IMG/VR virus record: IMGVR_UViG_3300025168_000739
Coordinates: 1 to 22,472 of that record
Source of the DNA: a virus
Length of the DNA: 22,472 nt
Reading direction: 5' to 3' (one strand)
The position numbers and the translations under genes are program-made. Under the pieces are notes generated by a model. That model ran no database searches and was not told the origin of the DNA. It saw only the letters and a list, made by a program, of their open reading frames with translations. Positions 4,719 through 20,912 of this stretch are shown in pieces; the first letter of the stretch is position 1; each line of letters opens with the position of its first letter.

Positions 4719-5504
4719 ATGCAGATATCGAATCATGAAAAAATAGACAACTCTAACACTCAAGATATATTCTTAAGGAATGCTACTCTTTCCCTGTTAG
4801 ATTTGATGAATAGAAAAATAATAATTGATCTTTTTAGAGAAGGGGTTGTGGAAAAACATGAGATTCCATTTTTCTATAATTTCTCTGGAAACCAAGGATT
4901 TATGCAGGATTTCTTTATCGATGTTCCTGATAATTGTAAATATCCTAGCTTTGCTGAAGGTAATTACGAGCCAGTTCCACGAGGGATACTTACTCTTTCT
5001 GGCTTCAATATTCAAAACTCTGACATAACTAATCCTTTTGTCAGAGGGACTTTTACTCAAGAGGAACGAGACACCAACGATAATAAAGTAATGAAGGCTT
5101 ATTCTTCTAGATTAAGATCTCTTCCTATGAAGTTAACTTTTGACATGAAAGTAATAAGTGATAACCTAAATAAAACATTTAAGATTACTGAAAAGATATT
5201 TGATTTTTACTATGCAAATATAGTTACTTATTTTCAATATAGAGGATTGAGAATACCTGCTCAAGTGAAATTTCCAGAGGCAATAACCAATGATAAAAAA
5301 TATAATTTTACCTATAAAGATGATACATATGTTGAAACTAGCTTTCAAGTATCAATGGAAACATATTACCCAAGTTTCGATCAATCATCTACATTAGAAC
5401 GCGGAAACGTAATAAGACAATTTGGATTTGATAAAAAAATAGCTGATAGTGGATCTAGCCTAGGACAGATATGGACAGATAAGGACTATCCAACTAATGA
5501 GTAA
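4719..5504 (+). CDS. gp15-like tail sheath terminator/completion protein
   Basis: This 261-residue protein has the layout of T4 gp15, which caps the tail tube and sheath and docks to the neck. An early helix-strand region (LMNRKIIIDLFREGVVEKHEIPFF) corresponds to the segment where gp15 homologues read F..I.I.R....V..I.VP. A middle PRGILTLSGFNI recalls the 'PRMSFEMTGM' strand. A later LPMKLTFDMKVISDNLNKTF and ITEKIFDFYYANIVTYF recall the 'pyd..f.l.i.tkn.dd.lqIiEqIlpyF' part. The start lies 5 nt after the neck gene stop, and its TAA overlaps the next ATG by one base, so the genes are translationally linked. Family assignment is from motif pattern and gene order. Confidence 0.55.
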   Translation: MQISNHEKIDNSNTQDIFLRNATLSLLDLMNRKIIIDLFREGVVEKHEIPFFYNFSGNQGFMQDFFIDVPDNCKYPSFAEGNYEPVPRGILTLSGFNIQNSDITNPFVRGTFTQEERDTNDNKVMKAYSSRLRSLPMKLTFDMKVISDNLNKTFKITEKIFDFYYANIVTYFQYRGLRIPAQVKFPEAITNDKKYNFTYKDDTYVETSFQVSMETYYPSFDQSSTLERGNVIRQFGFDKKIADSGSSLGQIWTDKDYPTNE

Positions 5505-9501: not shown

Positions 9502-10155
9502 TTAGTAAGCGCTAAGCCAAAAACATTTAACCGGGTTGTTCGCAGGAGTCATTGGTAAAGTGCTAGTTGAACTAGTCACACTATATTGGTATACACCTAA
9601 TGCAGTATCTGAATATAAAGGTTTAGAGGCAAAATTAGCAGAACCTCCTGATGAACCTACCCATATTGAAAAGTAATATTCAGTATTTGCAAGTAAAGTA
9701 ACTGTAGTATTTAAAGTTACTGATCTTACGCCTAATCCATTGGCAGTGGTAGAACCGTGACCTAATAGGCTAGTTCCTGCGCTATCGTGAATACTAAGAG
9801 TAACGTTTTGACTTGCCGCAGTGATAACAAAAAAGCTCATTTGAGTAACCTCTCTTAATACAGTAGGTATTACTTTAACTGAGTACATTTCATTTCCAAT
9901 AGCAGACTGTTGAGTAGTGTTAGATATATCAAAGCTTTGTATTGATTGAGCAATCCCTGGAGTTCCTGATCCGACTTCTTCAAATACCTTTATTGTAACA
10001 CCACTTGAATTTTTATAGTATACCAATTTAGTCCCAAAATCATAAAAGTAGTTGCCATTAGGAACTTCACTTGATTCACCCAATTGCTGTACAGTCCAAG
10101 AATATTCTATTCCAGTACCTAAAGATAATCCGTTTGTGTTTTCTACTGCTGCCAT
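9502..10155 (-). CDS. Tail fibre/adhesin paralogue with shared N-terminal module (217 aa)
   Basis: Residues 1-60 are the shared fibre module (MAAVENTNGLSLGTGIEYSW..., VPNGNYFYDFGTKLVYYKNS). They are nearly identical to the 350-aa protein encoded at 10813-11865 and related to those at 17216 and 19563. The rest (about residues 75-217) is a beta-sandwich-like domain with SFFVITAASQNVTLSIHDSAG and LLANTEYYFSIWVG, ending in CFWLSAY. This resembles carbohydrate-binding jelly rolls, but I cannot name the family. The module probably anchors different receptor-binding domains to a common tail site. The first 95 nt are identical to those of the 350-aa gene. The glycosyltransferase gene lies directly upstream. 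Confidence 0.7.
   Translation of the reverse strand: MAAVENTNGLSLGTGIEYSWTVQQLGESSEVPNGNYFYDFGTKLVYYKNSSGVTIKVFEEVGSGTPGIAQSIQSFDISNTTQQSAIGNEMYSVKVIPTVLREVTQMSFFVITAASQNVTLSIHDSAGTSLLGHGSTTANGLGVRSVTLNTTVTLLANTEYYFSIWVGSSGGSANFASKPLYSDTALGVYQYSVTSSTSTLPMTPANNPVKCFWLSAY
10061..10155 (-). repeat. 95-bp direct repeat, copy 1
   Basis: The first 95 nt of the 217-aa fibre gene are identical, base for base, to 11771-11865. A further 23-nt identical block follows (10025-10047 against 11735-11757). The copies are 1710 bp apart in the same orientation and flank the glycosyltransferase gene. Confidence 0.95.
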
Positions 10156-10161
10156 TTTTAT

Positions 10162-10173
10162 TATTTATTTATA
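10162..10173 (-). promoter_or_regulatory. TATAAATAAATA, perfect T4-late-type box
   Basis: On the minus strand TATAAATA (10173-10166) overlaps AATAAATA (10169-10162) and ends 10 nt before the ATG at 10155. It is the only exact T4 late promoter core found upstream of a start in this window. The 10-nt spacing would leave a leader of only a few bases, so a purely translational role is also possible. Confidence 0.4.
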
Positions 10174-10184
10174 ATATTCTAATT

Positions 10185-10811
10185 TTAATAGTCTACAATC
10201 CTATCTCTTAAGGTTGAATATTCATTAGGCGTGTGGGTTACTGCCCCTAATCCATATAAAAAAGAACGTCTTCTGAACTTATGTATCCTTCTAGTAACAT
10301 GGTCAATAGGTATTTCAAGCCTATTAAGTTCTTCTAGATAAATGTCAAAAACTGATTCATTTATCATATATGAAACACATCCTAAACAGCCATCCTTAGT
10401 AAGTCTGAAATTATAACAACTGTCTAAAGATTGATTAAACGAATTAGAATGAAAAATGTGTATAAAGTCATACCTGCCCATTCTTTTAATAAAGTTTTTA
10501 CAATCACTAAGAAATTGACTAAACATGTCGCTGTTTATTTTAGCATCGTCCTCAAATATTAAAATATTCTTGTGACCTTTTTGTTTAGATAGTTTTATTA
10601 TTCCTTTTGTAGTTTCCTGAAGTGATTTAGCATTATTATTCCAACCGTTACCTTTAGTTGGTTTTACGGAAAATTTAGATGAATCTACTGGAGTGATTCT
10701 AGTGAACTCTATATTATTTTTTAAGGCTTGTTTTTTAAAATTATCAAGTCTATCGGTTGATTTATCTAAATTTATAACAAACACCTCATCTACTAAATCT
10801 GTTATCTTCAT
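10185..10811 (-). CDS. Glycosyltransferase family 25-like protein
   Basis: This 208-residue protein has the two hallmark segments of family 25 (LPS-type) glycosyltransferases: VFVINLDKSTDRLDNFKKQ at residues 10-28, and a GT-A metal/nucleotide site in NILIFEDDAKI (E87-D89). The middle region (YDFIHIFHSNSF, LGCVSYMIN) fits the family. Members transfer a sugar from a nucleotide donor to LPS or to proteins such as collagen. It starts one base after the stop of the 350-aa fibre gene and lies between two fibre genes with identical 5' ends, so it may glycosylate these fibres or modify the host surface. Both are inference. Length is close to other phage and bacterial members. Confidence 0.8.
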   Translation of the reverse strand: MKITDLVDEVFVINLDKSTDRLDNFKKQALKNNIEFTRITPVDSSKFSVKPTKGNGWNNNAKSLQETTKGIIKLSKQKGHKNILIFEDDAKINSDMFSQFLSDCKNFIKRMGRYDFIHIFHSNSFNQSLDSCYNFRLTKDGCLGCVSYMINESVFDIYLEELNRLEIPIDHVTRRIHKFRRRSFLYGLGAVTHTPNEYSTLRDRIVDY

Positions 10812-10812
10812 A

Positions 10813-11865
10813 TTACAGCAAATATCCTTCTAAAACAATGTGAAACTCTCCATCTGATGTTCCTCCAGGGTTAGCAGCACCTGGAAGCCATGATGCGACT
10901 GGATTAACAGCTGTTCCGTTTGCATTTTCCTTTGGGTTATATGTCATATTTAAAGGGGCCAAACTAAAATCTTTAGGTGAATAGCCAGTAGAGTATTCCA
11001 TTCCATTAGTGTCATTTAACAATGACGCATCATTTATAGGCATTTCTGAAGTCATACCTAAACTTCCTTCAAATTGAGATAACTGTCCTGGAAATCTGCC
11101 TATAATACCAAATCCAGTTGTATTATTTAAGTCCGTTGAGTAAGTGTTTAGTAAATCATTAAAATCTACCCTCGTAAAACCCTCAATTCCTACTCCAAAC
11201 ATATTATAAACCGGGTCTCCAGATGCTGCTTGTGTTACACTAGTTTGATGTAGCGTCATTTGAGTATCACTTTGTATGCTTGCTATATACCCAGAACCGG
11301 AAGTGTTACCTCCAGATGCTACACTAGTAATTCTATCGCCGATACTAAATTCACTTAAAAATTGAGTTCCAACTCCAACAACAGTTGCCATTGTCGGTGG
11401 AGTAGCGGATGGGTCTCCATTTACAGTTGAATAAGTACCAGTCATCAAAGCCGTATCAGTGTGCTTTGTAAGTCTTTTTATAATATGAGTATATCTATTC
11501 AATTTAAAATATTTCTTACCTAAAAAGTTTAGTGGAATTACATTGTTTACACTCATAGTAGCCTTACCGTCTGTAGTTATTAATATTTCAAACGTAGCCT
11601 TTAAACCTGTAACTACAGTTCTTTTTATTAGGTAATTGGTTCTTGAATTTATAGTGGCACTGGCTTCTGAATAATGTACTCGACTTTGGTCAAATATGTT
11701 TATTATAACGCCATTTATATCTTTATAATAGACTAATTTAGTCCCAAAATCATAAAAATACTTGTTATTTGGAACTTCACTTGATTCACCCAATTGCTGT
11801 ACAGTCCAAGAATATTCTATTCCAGTACCTAAAGATAATCCGTTTGTGTTTTCTACTGCTGCCAT
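10813..11865 (-). CDS. Tail fibre/adhesin paralogue with shared N-terminal module (350 aa)
   Basis: The first 60 residues are the shared module (MAAVENTNGLSLGTGIEYSW..., KYFYDFGTKLVYYKDING), almost the same as in the 217-aa protein. Residues about 65-125 form a beta-rich segment (RTNYLIKRTVVTGLKATFEI). A motif follows that I know from phage structural proteins: VVGVGTQFLSEFSIGDRI then IASIQSDTQMTLHQT. The C-terminal 130 residues (from about GVGIEGFTRVDFNDLL) are unrecognised, Gly/Asn-rich, ending in EFHIVLEGYLL. The C-terminal halves of the 217-aa and 350-aa proteins share no visible similarity, so these are one anchor with two different tips. No Shine-Dalgarno is present. The stop is one base from the glycosyltransferase start. 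Confidence 0.75.
   Translation of the reverse strand: MAAVENTNGLSLGTGIEYSWTVQQLGESSEVPNNKYFYDFGTKLVYYKDINGVIINIFDQSRVHYSEASATINSRTNYLIKRTVVTGLKATFEILITTDGKATMSVNNVIPLNFLGKKYFKLNRYTHIIKRLTKHTDTALMTGTYSTVNGDPSATPPTMATVVGVGTQFLSEFSIGDRITSVASGGNTSGSGYIASIQSDTQMTLHQTSVTQAASGDPVYNMFGVGIEGFTRVDFNDLLNTYSTDLNNTTGFGIIGRFPGQLSQFEGSLGMTSEMPINDASLLNDTNGMEYSTGYSPKDFSLAPLNMTYNPKENANGTAVNPVASWLPGAANPGGTSDGEFHIVLEGYLL
11771..11865 (-). repeat. 95-bp direct repeat, copy 2
   Basis: This copy is identical to 10061-10155 and encodes the start of the 350-aa fibre gene. The identity stops sharply on the 3' side of the repeat, and upstream of the ATG the leaders differ, so the repeat begins at or near the start codon. 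Confidence 0.95.
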
Positions 11866-11877
11866 CTTCTATATTTT

Positions 11878-14800
11878 TTACGTCGTAGTATTTCCGTATA
11901 TATCCTGTGCAAAATGACTTAAAGTCATATTTACTAGCGGGGTAGTTGCTCCTCTCATAGCGGTCCCTCTTAAAGAAATATTTCTACTTGAACTGCTGTA
12001 AAAACAGCTAGCTCCGTTATTTTTTACCTGAACGTCACAATTAGCAAATTCAATTAAACCATTAGAGAATCCGACTTGGACCCCGTGACCGCCACTATTA
12101 TTTTCTCTAGATTCTATAGTACATTCTAACAAACTAGCAGAGTATGAAGAATTGTTTAAGCTAACCATAACTGCCGCTCCTCCTATTGAAATAAAATTAC
12201 AATTTTTAAATATAATATCTGAGACATTAACAATATTTAAAGCTAAAGATGTTCCATGATTTATCGATGTTCCATTCTTATAATTTATATCACTTCCTGA
12301 TGTATGTGTAATTGTTGCAAAATTCGTACTATTATTTGTAACAAAAAAGTTTGAAAAATAAGATCCGATACTATTAGAATCTATACATATGTTATTTGAA
12401 CAGGCTATGGTAAAATTACTAAATCTAGAAACATAGCCTGATCCGCTAACACCAGATATTCCTTTTCCAGTAGAACTTTCCAAATCAAACCTTGTGCATG
12501 TTCCATTAAACTGAGAACCTATATTTAAAGCATTTCCGCTGTTAGACTTTGAGTGAAAATTAGATAAATCCCACAACCCATCCAAGTCAATTGCATGATC
12601 TGATGAATTAGAGCCTGTATTTATGGCTGTAAAATCGGTTAATTTAACTGTACTTGTGTTATTACTTGCACAAAATATTCCTGAAACTGCAGATCCTCCG
12701 CCTGAAATACCAGTAAAGGATTTAGCACTATATTTTTCTATATAAAGTCCATGACCATTACCATTAGACTCAAAAACACTGTTTCCAAAATTAGCAAATC
12801 CGTCGGTACTATTTTCTATCTGTATATATACTCCGTGAGATATACTAGAAGATATATACATATTGCTCATTATTAAATTTGCGCTACCAGTCGTTGCTGC
12901 TAGTGCAGGAGCTGCTCCCGCTGTCCTTTTTAATGATCCGTTTATTAAATTTAAAGTTTTACTAGTACTTGTACTAGGTAAAAAGTGAATAGATGGATCA
13001 ACACCTGATCCACCATACGTTACTGTAAATCCATTAAAATCAATTAATATATTAGAAAATAAATATCCTTCACCTATAGTTGAAGCACTCCCGCCGACAT
13101 TCATAATGATACCTGAAGTTAGCGTAATATTGTCATATAGAGTCACTACTGCAGTTATATTGGACGCTTTACATGTTTCAAGTGCTGTTTGAAGATCTGA
13201 AAAATACGTCGGCGTACCATTATCGCTGTCTCGTATAACTCTAATTTGTCCAGAGCTAGATGACGATGTTGCAGATAACGTTCCAGTTCCACTTAAAGAT
13301 AGACCGGTTCCGATAGTTAGTTCTTGAACAATTCCGGTTCCTGCATTATACCTTCCAAGTATTTTTTGACTGTCTATTGATGCTATCTTATTTAAACCGA
13401 CTGCTCCAGCATCTATTGTCCAATTTGCTCCTCCTCCAGATACTGTAATATCTCCTTTATCTCCGTTAGTAATACCAGACGCGATGGGTGCGTATGTTGC
13501 GTTGGCAAACCCTCTATCAATAAGAGTTCTGTCAGTATATCCTGACTGATAATTTGCCGCATATTCTATACCTTTTGTAGTTGTTCTAAAATCTGTAAAT
13601 TTAGTAGTACTATTGTCTGCATCTATTTCAAACTTCATAACTGGACTGCCATAGCTGCCACTAGTAACCGAAGCCATTCCTATAAGAGATTTTTTAATAT
13701 TTAAAAATGTTCCTGTGTTATTATCGATATCCATTGATGTGGCTGAACATCCGTTAGAACTTAAAAAAATCTTAGAAGATATTCTACTTCCTACATTAGT
13801 ATCAATGACATATTCTTGAATGCTAGAGGATAAGATCTCTTTTCTAACGTTTATTCCTGTCTCATAATTAACATCTGTTATTACTCCCTGTTCATCGTGA
13901 AATAAACTAGATCCACCAGATGAGTATGGAAATGATCCTGACGAATACTTTTCAAATTTTTCTCTAGCGTTTATATTAAAAGTATCTAAGTTTTTATTTA
14001 ATAAGTTAACACCTAAGCTGAGATCAAAACCAGAAGATCCAGTACCTTCAATGACCGTATCTGCCGTAATAGCACCTCCTAAGTCAATTACTCCACTAGT
14101 TAAAGTTAATCCAGATCCTGCTGAAGTAGATGTCGATAGTGGTGCGTATGTTGCATCAGCAAAGTCCTTGTTTATAAGAGAAAGTCCTGAGAATGTACCG
14201 CTATAATCGGCGTCATATTCAATACCTGCTTTCGTAGCTGATAAATCTTTAAATGTAGTTGAACCTACCCCTGCTGCAGCTCCTGCAATTTTAAATTCAC
14301 CGGCTTTAGCTGTTAAGCAAAGCGTTTCAGGCGCTGCTCCAGAACTACCATAGCCAATCCTTATAGCACTTGGAGAACCTAAGTCTATTGAACCAGCATC
14401 ATTTAAAATGTACAATTGTCCAGCGCCTCCTTTGTATTGAATTGTAGAATATTGATTTAAACCTCCTGTTGTAGTCCAGTTTACTACTTGCAATCCTACG
14501 TTACCTCCAAAATCTCTATGTTCCCAAGTAGTAGTAGATGCTGAGTTAACGTTTGTTTGATGTGTCCAATTTGAAGTCCCTGTACCTATTCCACTAGCTC
14601 CTCCAAATGTTATATCTCCACCGCTATGTTCTACAAAAAATATATCAGCAGTTGTTGTATCAGTAATTTTTAATAAACCATTACTAAACGTAAGGTCTTG
14701 GTTGTTCATGTTATAACTTCTAGCTGCTGCAGCTTGAATTAAATTATCTGTTGCTAAATTTTGAGATAGAGTAGTTGATATAGTTACGTTAGATCTACTG

Positions 14801-15687
14801 TTTATACTGTCGTCTGCTACATTAATAGTAATACCAGTCCCCTCTATAAAGTTTATCTTATCTCTACTTGAAATAGTAGTTCCTCCTTTTTGAATATTCA
14901 ATACTGCAGCGGCAGTTGCCGAGAGGGTGTTAGAAACATCATTATATGTCCATGTAACGCTAGAAGTATCAGTTACTAAACTTGCAATCCTATCGTCTAC
15001 TCGTTCGTTGGTAAAATATAAGTTAGTAGTTCCTTCAGATAAATTATCAGTGTCGAAAGGAGAAAGACTAACAGTAGGCGTTAGTTGTCCAGCGCCATCG
15101 TTATAGTTCCAAGTTATACCTGTCCCGTTCTGAATTAAATCATTTACTCTGTCGTCTACTCTTTCATTTGTTAAATATAAATTAGTAGTTCCTTCAACAA
15201 CATCATCTGTTGTAAATTCAGTAAAATCTATAGAAGCGGTTAATGTATTAGCAGTGTCGTCGTATACAAGACTTATTCCTGTTCCTCCGATCATTAAACT
15301 TGAAACTCTATCATCTACTCGCTCGTCGGTAAAATATAAGTTAGTAGTTCCTTCTGGTAAATCGTCAGAAGTAAAACCTGAAAGTGATACATTTCCAACC
15401 ATTGTATTGGCCGCATCATTGTATGTCCAAGTTAAACCTGTTCCGTTTTGTATGAGTCCTCCAAAAACATCTTCGGCTCTTTCTTGAGTAAAGTATAAAT
15501 TTACTCCCTCCGCAATATCACTAGTAGTTAATGACAAAGCTCCTAAGCTCGCCCATATTAAATTTCCAGAACCATCGTATGATAAAACTTGACCAGTCGT
15601 CCCTGCGGTAGTTGGAAAGTCGTATGCATTATTTACGTTAACTTGACCTAGAAATACTACGTTTCTATAAATTTCAGTATCTTTCAC
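11878..15687 (-). CDS. Long tail fibre, 1269 aa, with ERVDDRV repeats and C-terminal beta-helix
   Basis: The start is GTG (15685-15687): an in-frame TAG lies four codons upstream and there is no ATG between. Residues 1-55 are the N-terminal region (TTGQVLSYDGSGNLIW). Residues about 56-262 hold four tandem 51-53-residue repeats (EGTTNLYFTNERVDDRV ... GTGITWNYND). Next comes a common fibre strand pair (KINFIEGTGITINVADDS). Two KGIEY...ATYAP segments occur in the middle, one followed by GDKGDITVSGGG. From about residue 816 (RVIRDSDNG..., DLQTAL) to the end it reads as a right-handed parallel beta-helix with many N/S/G turns. It closes with QDIYGNTTT, like the 449-aa and right-edge fibres. It is presumably a trimeric receptor-binding fibre. 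No catalytic motif for depolymerase activity could be picked out by eye. Confidence 0.85.
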   Translation of the reverse strand: MKDTEIYRNVVFLGQVNVNNAYDFPTTAGTTGQVLSYDGSGNLIWASLGALSLTTSDIAEGVNLYFTQERAEDVFGGLIQNGTGLTWTYNDAANTMVGNVSLSGFTSDDLPEGTTNLYFTDERVDDRVSSLMIGGTGISLVYDDTANTLTASIDFTEFTTDDVVEGTTNLYLTNERVDDRVNDLIQNGTGITWNYNDGAGQLTPTVSLSPFDTDNLSEGTTNLYFTNERVDDRIASLVTDTSSVTWTYNDVSNTLSATAAAVLNIQKGGTTISSRDKINFIEGTGITINVADDSINSRSNVTISTTLSQNLATDNLIQAAAARSYNMNNQDLTFSNGLLKITDTTTADIFFVEHSGGDITFGGASGIGTGTSNWTHQTNVNSASTTTWEHRDFGGNVGLQVVNWTTTGGLNQYSTIQYKGGAGQLYILNDAGSIDLGSPSAIRIGYGSSGAAPETLCLTAKAGEFKIAGAAAGVGSTTFKDLSATKAGIEYDADYSGTFSGLSLINKDFADATYAPLSTSTSAGSGLTLTSGVIDLGGAITADTVIEGTGSSGFDLSLGVNLLNKNLDTFNINAREKFEKYSSGSFPYSSGGSSLFHDEQGVITDVNYETGINVRKEILSSSIQEYVIDTNVGSRISSKIFLSSNGCSATSMDIDNNTGTFLNIKKSLIGMASVTSGSYGSPVMKFEIDADNSTTKFTDFRTTTKGIEYAANYQSGYTDRTLIDRGFANATYAPIASGITNGDKGDITVSGGGANWTIDAGAVGLNKIASIDSQKILGRYNAGTGIVQELTIGTGLSLSGTGTLSATSSSSSGQIRVIRDSDNGTPTYFSDLQTALETCKASNITAVVTLYDNITLTSGIIMNVGGSASTIGEGYLFSNILIDFNGFTVTYGGSGVDPSIHFLPSTSTSKTLNLINGSLKRTAGAAPALAATTGSANLIMSNMYISSSISHGVYIQIENSTDGFANFGNSVFESNGNGHGLYIEKYSAKSFTGISGGGSAVSGIFCASNNTSTVKLTDFTAINTGSNSSDHAIDLDGLWDLSNFHSKSNSGNALNIGSQFNGTCTRFDLESSTGKGISGVSGSGYVSRFSNFTIACSNNICIDSNSIGSYFSNFFVTNNSTNFATITHTSGSDINYKNGTSINHGTSLALNIVNVSDIIFKNCNFISIGGAAVMVSLNNSSYSASLLECTIESRENNSGGHGVQVGFSNGLIEFANCDVQVKNNGASCFYSSSSRNISLRGTAMRGATTPLVNMTLSHFAQDIYGNTTT
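14902..15522 (-). repeat. Four tandem fibre repeats (about 51-53 aa each)
   Basis: The repeats lie within the long fibre gene and have the consensus EGTTNLYFTxERVDDRVxxL...GTGITWxYND.  They differ at many bases, so they are old protein repeats rather than a recent DNA duplication. The first copy is the most divergent (EGVNLYFTQERAEDVF). Confidence 0.85.
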
Positions 15688-17205: not shown

Positions 17206-17217
17206 TATTTATTTATT
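17206..17217 (-). promoter_or_regulatory. Overlapping AATAAATA boxes before the 135-aa gene
   Basis: On the minus strand AATAAATAAATA ends 14 nt before the ATG at 17191 and overlaps the end of the 700-aa gene. It is late-promoter-like and the same arrangement as at 15703-15714. Confidence 0.4.
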
Positions 17218-19318
17218 ATTCTGTATATCTTATGTTTACCACTGTTGTTGCCGCTGTTGCCACTGTTCCAATATCTAAGAATATCCAGCTGTTAGCTGGT
17301 ATTGTTGGATCTGTTGAGATATCTACAGCTGCTTCAGTTGTAGTTGTTAGTGTGGTAGACGCTCCTATTGCTGTAGGTGAACTGTTAGCTAAATCAGTAT
17401 CCCAATATAGTCTAATATCAACATCACCTGCTGCCATTAATGCTCCTAAAGCTTCTTGAATTGTTATTGCTACGTCTGTTCTAAATATAGGAATATAATC
17501 TGCATCCGCTGGAGATTCAAGAATTATTGTTTTGGTAAGAGACGGTAAAACAACATTGTTAACTGTTACACTATCTCCAATTTTAGTAATCTGAAAGTTG
17601 TTTAAAGCGTACCAAGTTGCATTAACAGAAAAACTTGAAGTACTATCTGCCCAAAATTCTACATAATCTCCTACTGCTAATTCAAGATTGGTAGTTCCAG
17701 TTGGTGCATCCCAAGAAGTATGTAAGTCTGTTGCTGTAATTCTTTGTGTAACTCCGTTTTTCTTACAAAATATTTGAACCCAGCCACTACCATTATCTAC
17801 GAACAATGTATTTGTAAATTGGTATGTTCCTGCACCGCTTGCAGCAACTGTAAATCTATGTGTTGTATTATCCCACTCTCCATTTATATCAAAACCAAGA
17901 GTAGAATTATCTACATAGTCAATTCTTTCTGCCGTAGAAGTAAAAGCTTGTGTTGTGTCCATACGTCCTTGAACAAGAACTTTAGTTCCTATTCCTGAAG
18001 TTGCTCCTCCACTAACTATTTGTTCCCAAGCTGAACCGTTCCAAAAGAACTTTTTATTTTTATCGGTATCAAAACATTCAAAACCTTTTTGAGTCGTTCC
18101 GAATGAACCACTTGAACCAACTCTTCCTGCCGTATTCATTGTTATATTACCGAAAAACGACTGTTGACTTACGTTTGTTCCGTAGTTACGAATCAAAAAC
18201 CTTGCTCCCGTAACTGGTGTTGACTGTCCTAAAGTGAAGTTAGCATCTAAAAAGCAATTGGCATCATTTGAAATTCTAAAGAACTCTGCATTAGCAGCAG
18301 TACTTAAAACAAGTTTAGACACTCCAGACTGAACATTAAACTTAAACAAGTCTTGCGTTCCCGCAGTGTTTCTTATTGTATAGCTTTGAGCGTTTAAGGC
18401 GTGTTGAATAATGTTACCTGTACCAACAGTAAAGGCGTTAGTACTTGTTCCGTCGTATGCTACATTAAAAGCTGAATTTACGTTAGAACCGTTTGTGGCA
18501 AACCTACCGCTATTTTTAACGTCTAAAAGTGAATTATTATTAATATCAGTAACTTTGAACCCACTTGTTGAAGCTGAATTGTTTGATCCTTTAATAAGTG
18601 TGTCGTCTTGTAAGCTTATTTTTTCAGAACCTATAACTGCTGTTCCTTTTAAAATCCACCTTGAAGATGAATCTATTAAACTATGTTCAACAGTAGCTTT
18701 TTTAAATTTTACATAATTATCCGTATCTAAAACAACTCCAAAACTACTATGTCTTGTTCTTAATGTAATATCAGGATAAACACCAATACTTGAACCATAA
18801 GAAACATTAGACTTAATATGTAAAAGAAATCCAGCACTACCGAAATTTAAGTAATCATTTTCAAGAGCCCCACTCGATAATTTTAAGCCATTAAGATATG
18901 ACATATTACATAATGCTAGTGTACTACTACCATTTGTATTATAAAAGGTATGTTTGCCATCAATAGCAGCACCACCATATCCAATTCCGTGTCCGTTTGC
19001 ATTACCTTGTTGAACATCTAAAAGCAATCTGTTTATTCCGGTTGAATCTTTTAATTGCCAAGAGTGATCGTTAATATCTGCTGTATGAGCTCCATCAAAA
19101 GTTAAATCTGCAATTGAAATATTATCACCGCCACTTTCGAATGGGTTTACTACAGCACCAGTTGAATCTTTGAAATAAACTAATTTAGTAGCTTTATCAA
19201 AAAAGTATGCGCTGTTAGGTAAACTTGCAGAAGTCCAATCAGAAGAACTGTCTGTTGTATGAGTATATGTTACTCCTGCTGATTGTGATATTCCGTTTGC
19301 TAAAGTTACTATTGCCAT
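17216..19318 (-). CDS. Tail fibre paralogue with shared N-terminal module and C1q-like domain (700 aa)
   Basis: Residues about 1-65 are a diverged copy of the shared module (GVTYTHTTDSSSDW, LPNSAYFFDKATKLVYFKDS). Residues about 70-420 form a long fibre body with repeating local patterns (LLDVQQGNANGHG, FKVTDINNNSLLDVKNSG, FKFNVQSG), like the template segments of phage fibre proteins. A GFECFDTDKNKKFFWNGSAWEQI segment follows. Residues about 441-580 look like a C1q/TNF-type jelly roll (FDINGEWDNTTHRFTV, GAGTYQFTNTLFVD, LAVGDYVEFWADS, FQITKIG). A last beta domain (YIPIFRTDVAITIQEAL ... INIRYTE-like end) closes it. C1q-type domains form trimers and bind ligands, so this is a good candidate receptor-binding protein. 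The start is 2 nt after the upstream 61-aa gene stop. Confidence 0.8.
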   Translation of the reverse strand: MAIVTLANGISQSAGVTYTHTTDSSSDWTSASLPNSAYFFDKATKLVYFKDSTGAVVNPFESGGDNISIADLTFDGAHTADINDHSWQLKDSTGINRLLLDVQQGNANGHGIGYGGAAIDGKHTFYNTNGSSTLALCNMSYLNGLKLSSGALENDYLNFGSAGFLLHIKSNVSYGSSIGVYPDITLRTRHSSFGVVLDTDNYVKFKKATVEHSLIDSSSRWILKGTAVIGSEKISLQDDTLIKGSNNSASTSGFKVTDINNNSLLDVKNSGRFATNGSNVNSAFNVAYDGTSTNAFTVGTGNIIQHALNAQSYTIRNTAGTQDLFKFNVQSGVSKLVLSTAANAEFFRISNDANCFLDANFTLGQSTPVTGARFLIRNYGTNVSQQSFFGNITMNTAGRVGSSGSFGTTQKGFECFDTDKNKKFFWNGSAWEQIVSGGATSGIGTKVLVQGRMDTTQAFTSTAERIDYVDNSTLGFDINGEWDNTTHRFTVAASGAGTYQFTNTLFVDNGSGWVQIFCKKNGVTQRITATDLHTSWDAPTGTTNLELAVGDYVEFWADSTSSFSVNATWYALNNFQITKIGDSVTVNNVVLPSLTKTIILESPADADYIPIFRTDVAITIQEALGALMAAGDVDIRLYWDTDLANSSPTAIGASTTLTTTTEAAVDISTDPTIPANSWIFLDIGTVATAATTVVNIRYTE

Positions 19319-19562: not shown

Positions 19563-20912
19563 TTAACCAATTAAAACGTTTCCATAAATATCAGGAGTAT
19601 TACTTTGTAAGTTAGTTATATTTGAATTAATTGCTACAGTGCAGCCTCTAAATTTCAATCCTACAAAATAGCAACTCTTTGCTGAACCGGAATATAAGCC
19701 ATTAGCTGAAGCATTGTGAACTCTCAGACTACCGCCGCTAAATGTAACATCGTCGTCACTGCCTACAACGGTTAAGGCATGGCCTGCAGCATCATTCCAA
19801 ATCGAAGATACTGATAAATTAGAAAACTCGACTTTTCCTGCATTCTTAAGTACATACATTCCAGATGCAGCTGTAGATAAAGCTTTGACATCGTCAACTA
19901 AATGGTCTCCAGAGCCCGAACTATATCTAACTCCATAAGAAGAAGTAGAGTGTCCTGTTATGTTAGTTCCGTTTCCTAAAATATTGACTCCCGCAGAACC
20001 TGAAGAATAGCCAAAAATATTTGCGCATTTATTAGCTCCTGTTATAGAAGCCCCATAACTAGAATTAGAATATCCTTTACAATCAAAATTGTATCCTCCG
20101 GCTCCATAAAATCCAATATCTCCAGTAGATCTTCCTATGCAGCTATATGCGTTGCTACTATTGTTATAAACTCCATAAGAGCTAGTAGAAAATCCATAAC
20201 AATTTATTGCCGTTCCGTTGTTTTGTATTTGTAAACCGGCACCGCTGTTTGCGCTTGCTTTTGCATTTTCTAGTTTTGCGTTTGATATATAAACCCCTAA
20301 AGATTCTCCAACAAAATCACCACCTTTGACCGTTCTTGATGCGCTAGATAAATAACTAGCGTTACCGAAATCACTCTCTAAAATCATCGAATTTAAAGTC
20401 AAAACTCCAGAACCAGTTGCACTAATTGAAACACTGTTCGATAGTGATGCCGTACCTCCTATTCTTTTAATTTTACCATTAAACATTTCTAAAGAAACAT
20501 TAATTGGAACTGTAAAAGAATTAGAAGTTCCGGTCGTATTTAGTGTATAAGTATATCCGTTAAAGTTTATATTAACACCATCAACACAAGTCACTGTTAT
20601 ATCGCTCGTTTCTGTAATATTTGAAAATACTTCTATAGTATCTCCACTAGAAGCTGCTGCAAGCGCTAAAGCAAAAGTATCATAAGCAGTATACTTACCA
20701 GTTGAATCTGATATAGCAATTTTCATAATAGATCCACCGTATACACTTAACACTGCACCAGTAGAATCCTTATAATAAGGTAAACTAGTAGCTTTGTCAT
20801 AAAAATAAGTACTGTTTGGTACACTTCCCCAATCACCATTGTTGTCGGTTATCTTTGAATAACTAATACCTTTTTCAGGTTTCGGGTTAAAGTTTATATC
20901 TTGTACTGCCAT
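19563..20912 (-). CDS. Tail fibre with shared N-terminal module and beta-helix (449 aa)
   Basis: Residues about 1-60 are a diverged shared module (GISYSKITDNNGDW, VPNSTYFYDKATSLPYYKDS). From about residue 65 a beta-helix begins: TAYDTFALALAAASSGDTI, VFSNITE, INFNGYTYTL, MFNGKIKRIGG. A long series of turns rich in N, S and G follows (SSYGVYNNSSNAYS, GFYGAGGYNFDC). The end (GCTVAINSNITNLQ...DIYGNVLIG) matches the C-terminal cap of the 1269-aa and right-edge fibres. It therefore combines the N-terminal anchor of one group with the beta-helix of the other, which makes it the link between the two sets. Beta-helix fibres may bind or cut surface polysaccharide; no catalytic residues could be assigned. 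Confidence 0.8.
   Translation of the reverse strand: MAVQDINFNPKPEKGISYSKITDNNGDWGSVPNSTYFYDKATSLPYYKDSTGAVLSVYGGSIMKIAISDSTGKYTAYDTFALALAAASSGDTIEVFSNITETSDITVTCVDGVNINFNGYTYTLNTTGTSNSFTVPINVSLEMFNGKIKRIGGTASLSNSVSISATGSGVLTLNSMILESDFGNASYLSSASRTVKGGDFVGESLGVYISNAKLENAKASANSGAGLQIQNNGTAINCYGFSTSSYGVYNNSSNAYSCIGRSTGDIGFYGAGGYNFDCKGYSNSSYGASITGANKCANIFGYSSGSAGVNILGNGTNITGHSTSSYGVRYSSGSGDHLVDDVKALSTAASGMYVLKNAGKVEFSNLSVSSIWNDAAGHALTVVGSDDDVTFSGGSLRVHNASANGLYSGSAKSCYFVGLKFRGCTVAINSNITNLQSNTPDIYGNVLIG

Follow-up and report, generated by a model that had tools for sequence, protein, structure and literature searches.

Results

Organization of the fibre locus

The window, by which we mean the whole stretch of viral DNA analysed (22,472 nucleotides), carries two fibre genes, A and B, with a gene for a family 25 glycosyltransferase (GT25) lying between them (Table 1). 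The layout is operon-like: the gene of a 1269-aa tail or structural protein is followed after 12 nt by gene B, after 1 nt by the GT25 gene and after 29 nt by gene A. The product of the GT25 gene matched the Pfam family Glyco_transf_25 with an E-value of 5e-11, which passes the cut-off. Among phage records, matches to this gene were found only in uncultured phage genomes of 636-735 kb, at 26-32% identity. Residues 160-216 of protein B matched a tail fiber protein family (phrog_1980, E 1e-5), and the tip of protein A, i.e. the part behind the N-terminal anchor described below, gave weak matches to DUF4082 and choice-of-anchor R, both under the curated cut-offs. The phage is probably a myovirus, because positions 4719-5504 encode a sheath stabiliser of the T4 gp15 type. 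Near the structural genes, positions 1081-1665 gave a weak match to a phage 2OG-Fe(II) oxygenase (phrog_61, E 9e-6). No recombinase, invertase or reverse transcriptase was found among the ORFs scanned in this 22.5-kb record, a set that includes part of the short ORFs.

Table 1. Positions of the features discussed in the text (window coordinates unless another contig is named)
Feature	Position	Strand	Description
Gene A, 217 aa	9502..10155	-	anchor and small predicted beta-sandwich tip
GT25 gene, 208 aa	10185..10811	-	between A and B; Pfam Glyco_transf_25
Gene B, 350 aa	10813..11865	-	anchor and tail-fibre-like tip
1269-aa tail/structural protein	11878..15687	-	directly upstream of B, 12-nt gap
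95-bp repeat, copy A	10061..10155	-	codons 1-31 and two bases of gene A
95-bp repeat, copy B	11771..11865	-	codons 1-31 and two bases of gene B
Anchor module of gene A, codons 1-62	9970..10155	-	codons 1-48 homogenised with copy B
Anchor module of gene B, codons 1-62	11680..11865	-	
Third anchor-module copy	19127..19318	-	diverged; N-terminus of 700-aa protein (17216-19318)
Fourth anchor-module copy	20733..20912	-	diverged; N-terminus of 449-aa protein (19563-20912)
53-aa repeats of the 1269-aa tail gene	window 14977-15368; L003 705-800 and 1023-1118		
L034/L032 chimera	L034 3290-3463 vs L032 1028 and 3290		
2.3-kb fibre cassette, presence/absence	L086 6175-6183; L091 6184-8473		viral contigs from several metagenomes

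The identical 95 bp belong to a longer N-terminal module

An earlier note on this DNA had drawn attention to two identical direct copies of a 95-bp sequence 1710 bp apart, and alignment within the window bore this out: the copies agree in 95 of 95 positions, lie in direct orientation with a start-to-start distance of 1710 bp, and form a maximal match, with no further identical base at either end. The identity starts precisely at the ATG of both genes. The length of the repeat is far above chance, because the longest exact repeat reached only 13-18 nt when the window was shuffled 50 times at the mononucleotide level; when copy B was removed from the window, the longest remaining exact repeat was 27 nt. 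However, the two genes do not diverge completely behind the repeat, as the note had supposed. Over codons 33-62 they remain identical at 69 of 90 nucleotides (about 77%), with both silent and replacement differences; the homology fades over codons 32-60 until, about 29 codons beyond the 95 bp, it is gone near codon 62. The repeat accounts for half of the coding sequence of an N-terminal module some 60 amino acids long, which we refer to as the anchor.

The sequence had also been presented as a pair. This is correct for the exact match, but a profile built from the first 62 residues detected four copies of the module in the window, every one at the extreme N-terminus of its protein. The additional copies, at the heads of the 700-aa and 449-aa proteins, are less alike than the A/B pair; the 449-aa protein is, judged by eye, probably a beta-helix.

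Codons 1-48 group within genomes and the following codons by orthology

The virus record IMGVR_UViG_3300037891_000718 (L003/L010, hereafter L003) has the same order of genes, i.e. the tail gene, B, GT25, A, a 155-aa protein and an endolysin. When the glycosyltransferase, tip B and the 155-aa downstream protein were used as queries, only the L003 contig was returned. The fibre genes vary most among the genes of the locus, because protein identity between the window and L003 is 60% for B and 57% for A, as against 89% for the glycosyltransferase and 98% for the 155-aa neighbour. The 1269-aa protein appears to be encoded by a mosaic gene: residues about 482-725 are near-identical to those of L003, and both sides are far more diverged.

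We compared the site patterns of the four copies (A and B of the window, A and B of L003), a comparison with one close relative that yielded 20 informative sites. Within codons 1-48, 14 sites grouped the two copies of the same genome and none grouped the orthologues, whereas within codons 49-62 no site grouped the copies within a genome and six grouped the orthologues (Fisher p 2.6e-5 for the contrast, a somewhat optimistic value, as are the other p-values, since the codon 48/49 boundary was picked after viewing the alignment). Maximum likelihood under the HKY model gave the same contrast: for codons 1-48 the tree with the paralogues together was better than that with the orthologues together by 41 lnL (AU p 9e-10), and for codons 49-62 the orthologues-together tree was better by 10.6 lnL (AU p 0.0076). 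Nine codons are common to both copies within a genome and fixed differently between the genomes. Because six of these nine co-changing codons are synonymous, constraint on the protein alone would be insufficient to explain the homogenised codons; the synonymous differences between the window and L003 fall at codons 14, 19, 25, 26, 31 and 38, and in each genome both copies share the change.

Both sides of the homogenised tract follow orthology. On the 3' side this applies to codons 49-62 (0:6), and upstream of the ATG the leaders do so in part, A resembling A (AAATAAATAATAAAA) and B resembling B over part of the flank. In L003, A and B are identical over codons 34-48, which constitutes a tract of its own, and isolated differences between them are kept at codons 11 and 21. 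The 53-aa repeats in the adjacent 1269-aa gene served as a control and were found to follow orthology in the same two genomes (e.g., 54:1). The exception was units 2 and 4 of L003, which look homogenised (91 of 96 nt identical vs 74 of 96 in the window), a sign that short repeats exchange more generally in this lineage.

The module in other phages

The anchor had no convincing match in Pfam or PHROGs. Proteins A and B, the anchor, the 700-aa and 449-aa proteins and the anchor of a relative gave no match by tblastn in cultured-phage records, the module was not found in the 50,697 phage records searched, and an exact 44-nt search of viral contigs revealed no further carriers of the repeat DNA. 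Two broader profiles of the module retrieved 37 and then 57 loci from viral contigs, the contigs partly overlapping. The loci collected contain 70 distinct module genes, in 67 of which the module starts at the initial Met, and the motif YFYD..TKLVYYK..G is common to the carriers. The genes range from less than 100 aa (some being clipped by contig ends) to more than 1000 aa. In 28 gene pairs, a count that takes in the A/B pairs themselves and near-duplicate contigs, the anchor DNA is at least 80% alike (maximum 98.9%) and the tips are unrelated. Thus, with 28 such pairs and 67 of 70 modules at Met, the same module precedes unrelated C-terminal parts, as is expected of modular receptor-binding proteins. 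The profile of the A/B anchor found no relative in genome contigs, and the broader profile found one match only, in a 102-kb contig of a Flavobacteriales MAG. This contig may itself be a phage contig, and the hosts of the phages carrying the module are possibly Flavobacteriales.

Two kinds of anchor-tip variants were detected among these loci. One gene of L034 opens like one gene of L032 and continues as another, the change of parent lying inside the anchor. L086 and L091 are about 95% identical over 4 kb upstream plus the anchor (178 of 180 nt in the anchor) and 99.6% identical downstream. In L091 what comes next is a fibre of 667 aa, then a gene of 103 aa and then a second fibre gene, whose N-terminus is different; in L086 the anchor is joined straight to the tip of this second fibre gene. 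The joint shows a few bases of homology and no long repeat. Extra mismatches in the first 20-40 bases past the joint in L086 suggest that a third phage may have been involved, and the variant may represent either loss or gain of the cassette. The variants show that tips do move on the module in nature, in distant module phages and elsewhere than at the A/B locus. The exchange of tips behind one anchor that the earlier note had envisaged therefore gains support for the family as a whole, by chimeras, cassettes and unrelated tips, but not for the locus itself.

Predicted structure of the anchor and the tips

In the AlphaFold models the module was predicted at moderate confidence (block means about 60-82) in protein B only. 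The N-terminal domain of Mtd (Major tropism determinant) resembled the module weakly (Z 3.3-3.7 over 42 residues, 2.3-2.4 A), a similarity that may reflect a common arrangement only, and collagen trimerisation domains were also among the weak structural neighbours (Z 3-4). Because of these neighbours, we read the module as most likely a small trimerising and/or virion-docking unit of the fibre. The different tips behind it are probably receptor-binding or carbohydrate-contacting.

Tip A was predicted to be a beta-sandwich. VIA-align gave a best Z of 7.2 for this tip, to a carbohydrate-binding module, followed by GH2 sandwich domains; we did not trust a function assigned from this score alone, since the beta-sandwich arrangement is common. 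For protein B the best Z was 4.4. Searches of the sequences of solved structures with A and B returned nothing convincing, and Foldseek gave no hit with E <0.001 for A against the PDB or for B against viral models.

Discussion

Concerted evolution of the two anchors

The earlier note had left the choice between recent duplication and ongoing exchange. The contrast of 14:0 with 0:6 speaks for exchange, and the orthologous tips in L003 speak against a recent duplication. The duplication that gave rise to A and B is older than the split between the window phage and L003, because orthology governs codons 49-62 as well as the tips and some of the 5' flanking sequence, and codons 1-48 have been homogenised independently in each genome. 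We consider it likely that codons 1-48 of A and B have been copied repeatedly between the paralogues by gene conversion, because these codons group within the genome and codons 49-62 do the opposite; the result would be two tips behind a shared virion anchor and a slow mixing rather than a switch. The 95 identical bases are then the newest tract in the window, within an exchanged stretch of about 144 bp (codons 1-48).

In mechanistic terms, homologous recombination would repeatedly copy this stretch from one fibre gene to the other, and we infer that the exchange is conversion rather than the product of repeated crossovers between co-infecting genomes. Proteins A and B would dock at the same kind of site on the virion, their tips would bind host structures, and selection for one docking interface could help to keep the anchors alike. 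The two proteins would then be fibres displayed together as a set, and the common 5' ends of their genes would permit a slow reshuffling without reversible switching.

Other explanations

The locus could instead be a dedicated host-range switch, with the direct repeats serving as a high-frequency recombination site that deletes or re-sorts tips. The repeats are in frame, exact over 95 bp and 1710 bp apart, and distant relatives do show cassette presence/absence and anchor-tip chimeras. However, direct repeats cannot invert the DNA between them but only delete 1710 bp, whereby B and the GT25 gene are lost and nothing regenerates B. The loss of the glycosyltransferase and the 350-aa tip proposed in the earlier note is sound in its geometry, the ATGs being in register 1710 bp apart, but no single-repeat form of the locus was found in the sequences searched and L003 retains the two-gene form. 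A crossover inside the 95 bp would irreversibly yield an unaltered protein A downstream of the B leader, which gives no support to the idea that either tip could be put behind the same anchor. With deletion as the only outcome and no recombinase or reverse transcriptase among the ORFs scanned, the description of the locus as a ready-made switch is not supported, and the L086/L091 junction was formed with a few bases of homology, not at a long repeat. Of the pattern that the note had set against its own proposal, i.e. the same two-gene arrangement in relatives with normally diverged repeats, the arrangement was found in L003 and the normal divergence was not. Altogether, we regard a dedicated switch as very unlikely.

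Two further devices for varying fibres were considered and rejected. In an invertible tail-fibre cassette (phase variation) the repeats would be inverted, and here they are direct, with no invertase among the ORFs scanned. A diversity-generating retroelement has a template/variable repeat pair, with adenine-specific changes and the variable repeat in the C-terminal part, whereas the repeats described here do not differ and are found at the 5' ends.

Since the window is a virus contig and assemblers of short reads are able to collapse bubbles between repeats, the identity could in principle have arisen when a metagenome assembler merged two moderately different copies. We give this only a slim chance: the contig runs through both copies into different flanks, there is no break where the identity passes to about 77%, and the independent contig L003 repeats the homogenisation pattern. 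Both genomes are assembled contigs in which bubble popping could erase isolated differences between copies, yet L003 keeps those at codons 11 and 21.

If a fibre gene had been duplicated in tandem very recently and one of the two tips then replaced, a near-identity that is confined to the 5' end and sets in right at the ATG would be understandable. This course of events is nonetheless highly improbable: in L003 both genes are present, their tips are orthologous and the same glycosyltransferase lies between them, codons 49-62 and some of the 5' flanking sequence also sort by orthology, and independent duplications onto the same two tips would be required in both lineages. Strong purifying selection on the first 31 codons without exchange, be it on a protein interface or on a regulatory RNA or DNA element, deserves almost no credence in spite of the conservation of the module across many phages, because constraint cannot make two genes change silently together, as they do in each genome at the six synonymous codons named above.

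Relation to known systems

The locus follows the modular design of receptor-binding proteins that is already known, with an anchor for which Pfam and PHROGs gave no convincing match. In T-even phages, distal tail-fibre adhesins are reportedly swapped by recombination between conserved motifs, as Tetart et al. are said to have described in 1998. There, as at the present locus, homologous stretches within fibre genes permit the exchange of the part that determines specificity. However, T-even adhesin segments are exchanged between phages, whereas at the present locus the homogenisation takes place between paralogous fibre genes within a single genome. In Mtd of the Bordetella phage, whose N-terminal domain is the weak structural neighbour of the module, a retroelement varies the C-terminal part; no variation of the retroelement type was seen at the A/B locus.

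The branched tailspike complex of the Ackermannviridae is comparable in that one virus carries several receptor-binding proteins with conserved N-terminal or 5' parts and different tips. For TSP1-TSP4 of the genus Kuttervirus, paralogous tsp genes recombined in the laboratory, which produced a chimera and also led to the loss of tsp genes (PMC11414711), and swapping of tips at a conserved motif has been proposed from Ackermannviridae genomes (PMC8432352). In contrast, the module described here is different and much shorter, a glycosyltransferase gene lies between the genes, and the concerted evolution is shown from two genomes; the locus operates in a similar manner, but nothing marks it as a member of the Ackermannviridae complex. 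The T4 gp10-like XD linking domains that characterise two of the tailspikes had no Pfam or PHROGs match in A, B or the 700-aa and 449-aa proteins, sequences that are remote from those of all cultured phages. Lytic E. coli phages have tailspike genes with conserved motifs of 44 and 95 nt, which have been proposed as recombination hotspots (Virol J 2023, PMC10408124). In these tailspikes, too, the N-terminal anchor is conserved and the C-terminal domain exchanged (PMC10408124), but it is different phages that have the motifs in common, with a mean identity of 63-81%, whereas here two genes of one genome agree exactly over 95 bp. We recognised no case in which paralogous fibre genes of a phage undergo gene conversion or evolve in concert in the titles and abstracts covered, a body of text in which the subscription literature is mostly not represented.

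Conserved N-termini with exchangeable tips are thus familiar, and whether shared 5' ends are leftovers or are actively exchanged has usually been inferred. The two related genomes allow a direct test, with the anchors homogenised inside each genome and a boundary near codon 48/49. Beyond gene conversion between A and B, we can tentatively imagine, though with more doubt than belief, that the 60-residue anchor with its conserved coding DNA is a standing recombination handle, conversion keeping the paralogous anchors matched while tips or cassettes are gained, lost and re-sorted without losing their fit to the virion. If this were true, the locus would be an evolvable multi-fibre array.

The module identifies a fibre-protein family of uncultured phages and provides a handle for finding their tips. 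Among the carriers collected, a neighbouring pair of fibre genes in L025 (4997 and 5603) has an exact anchor match of 56 nt, the second longest found.
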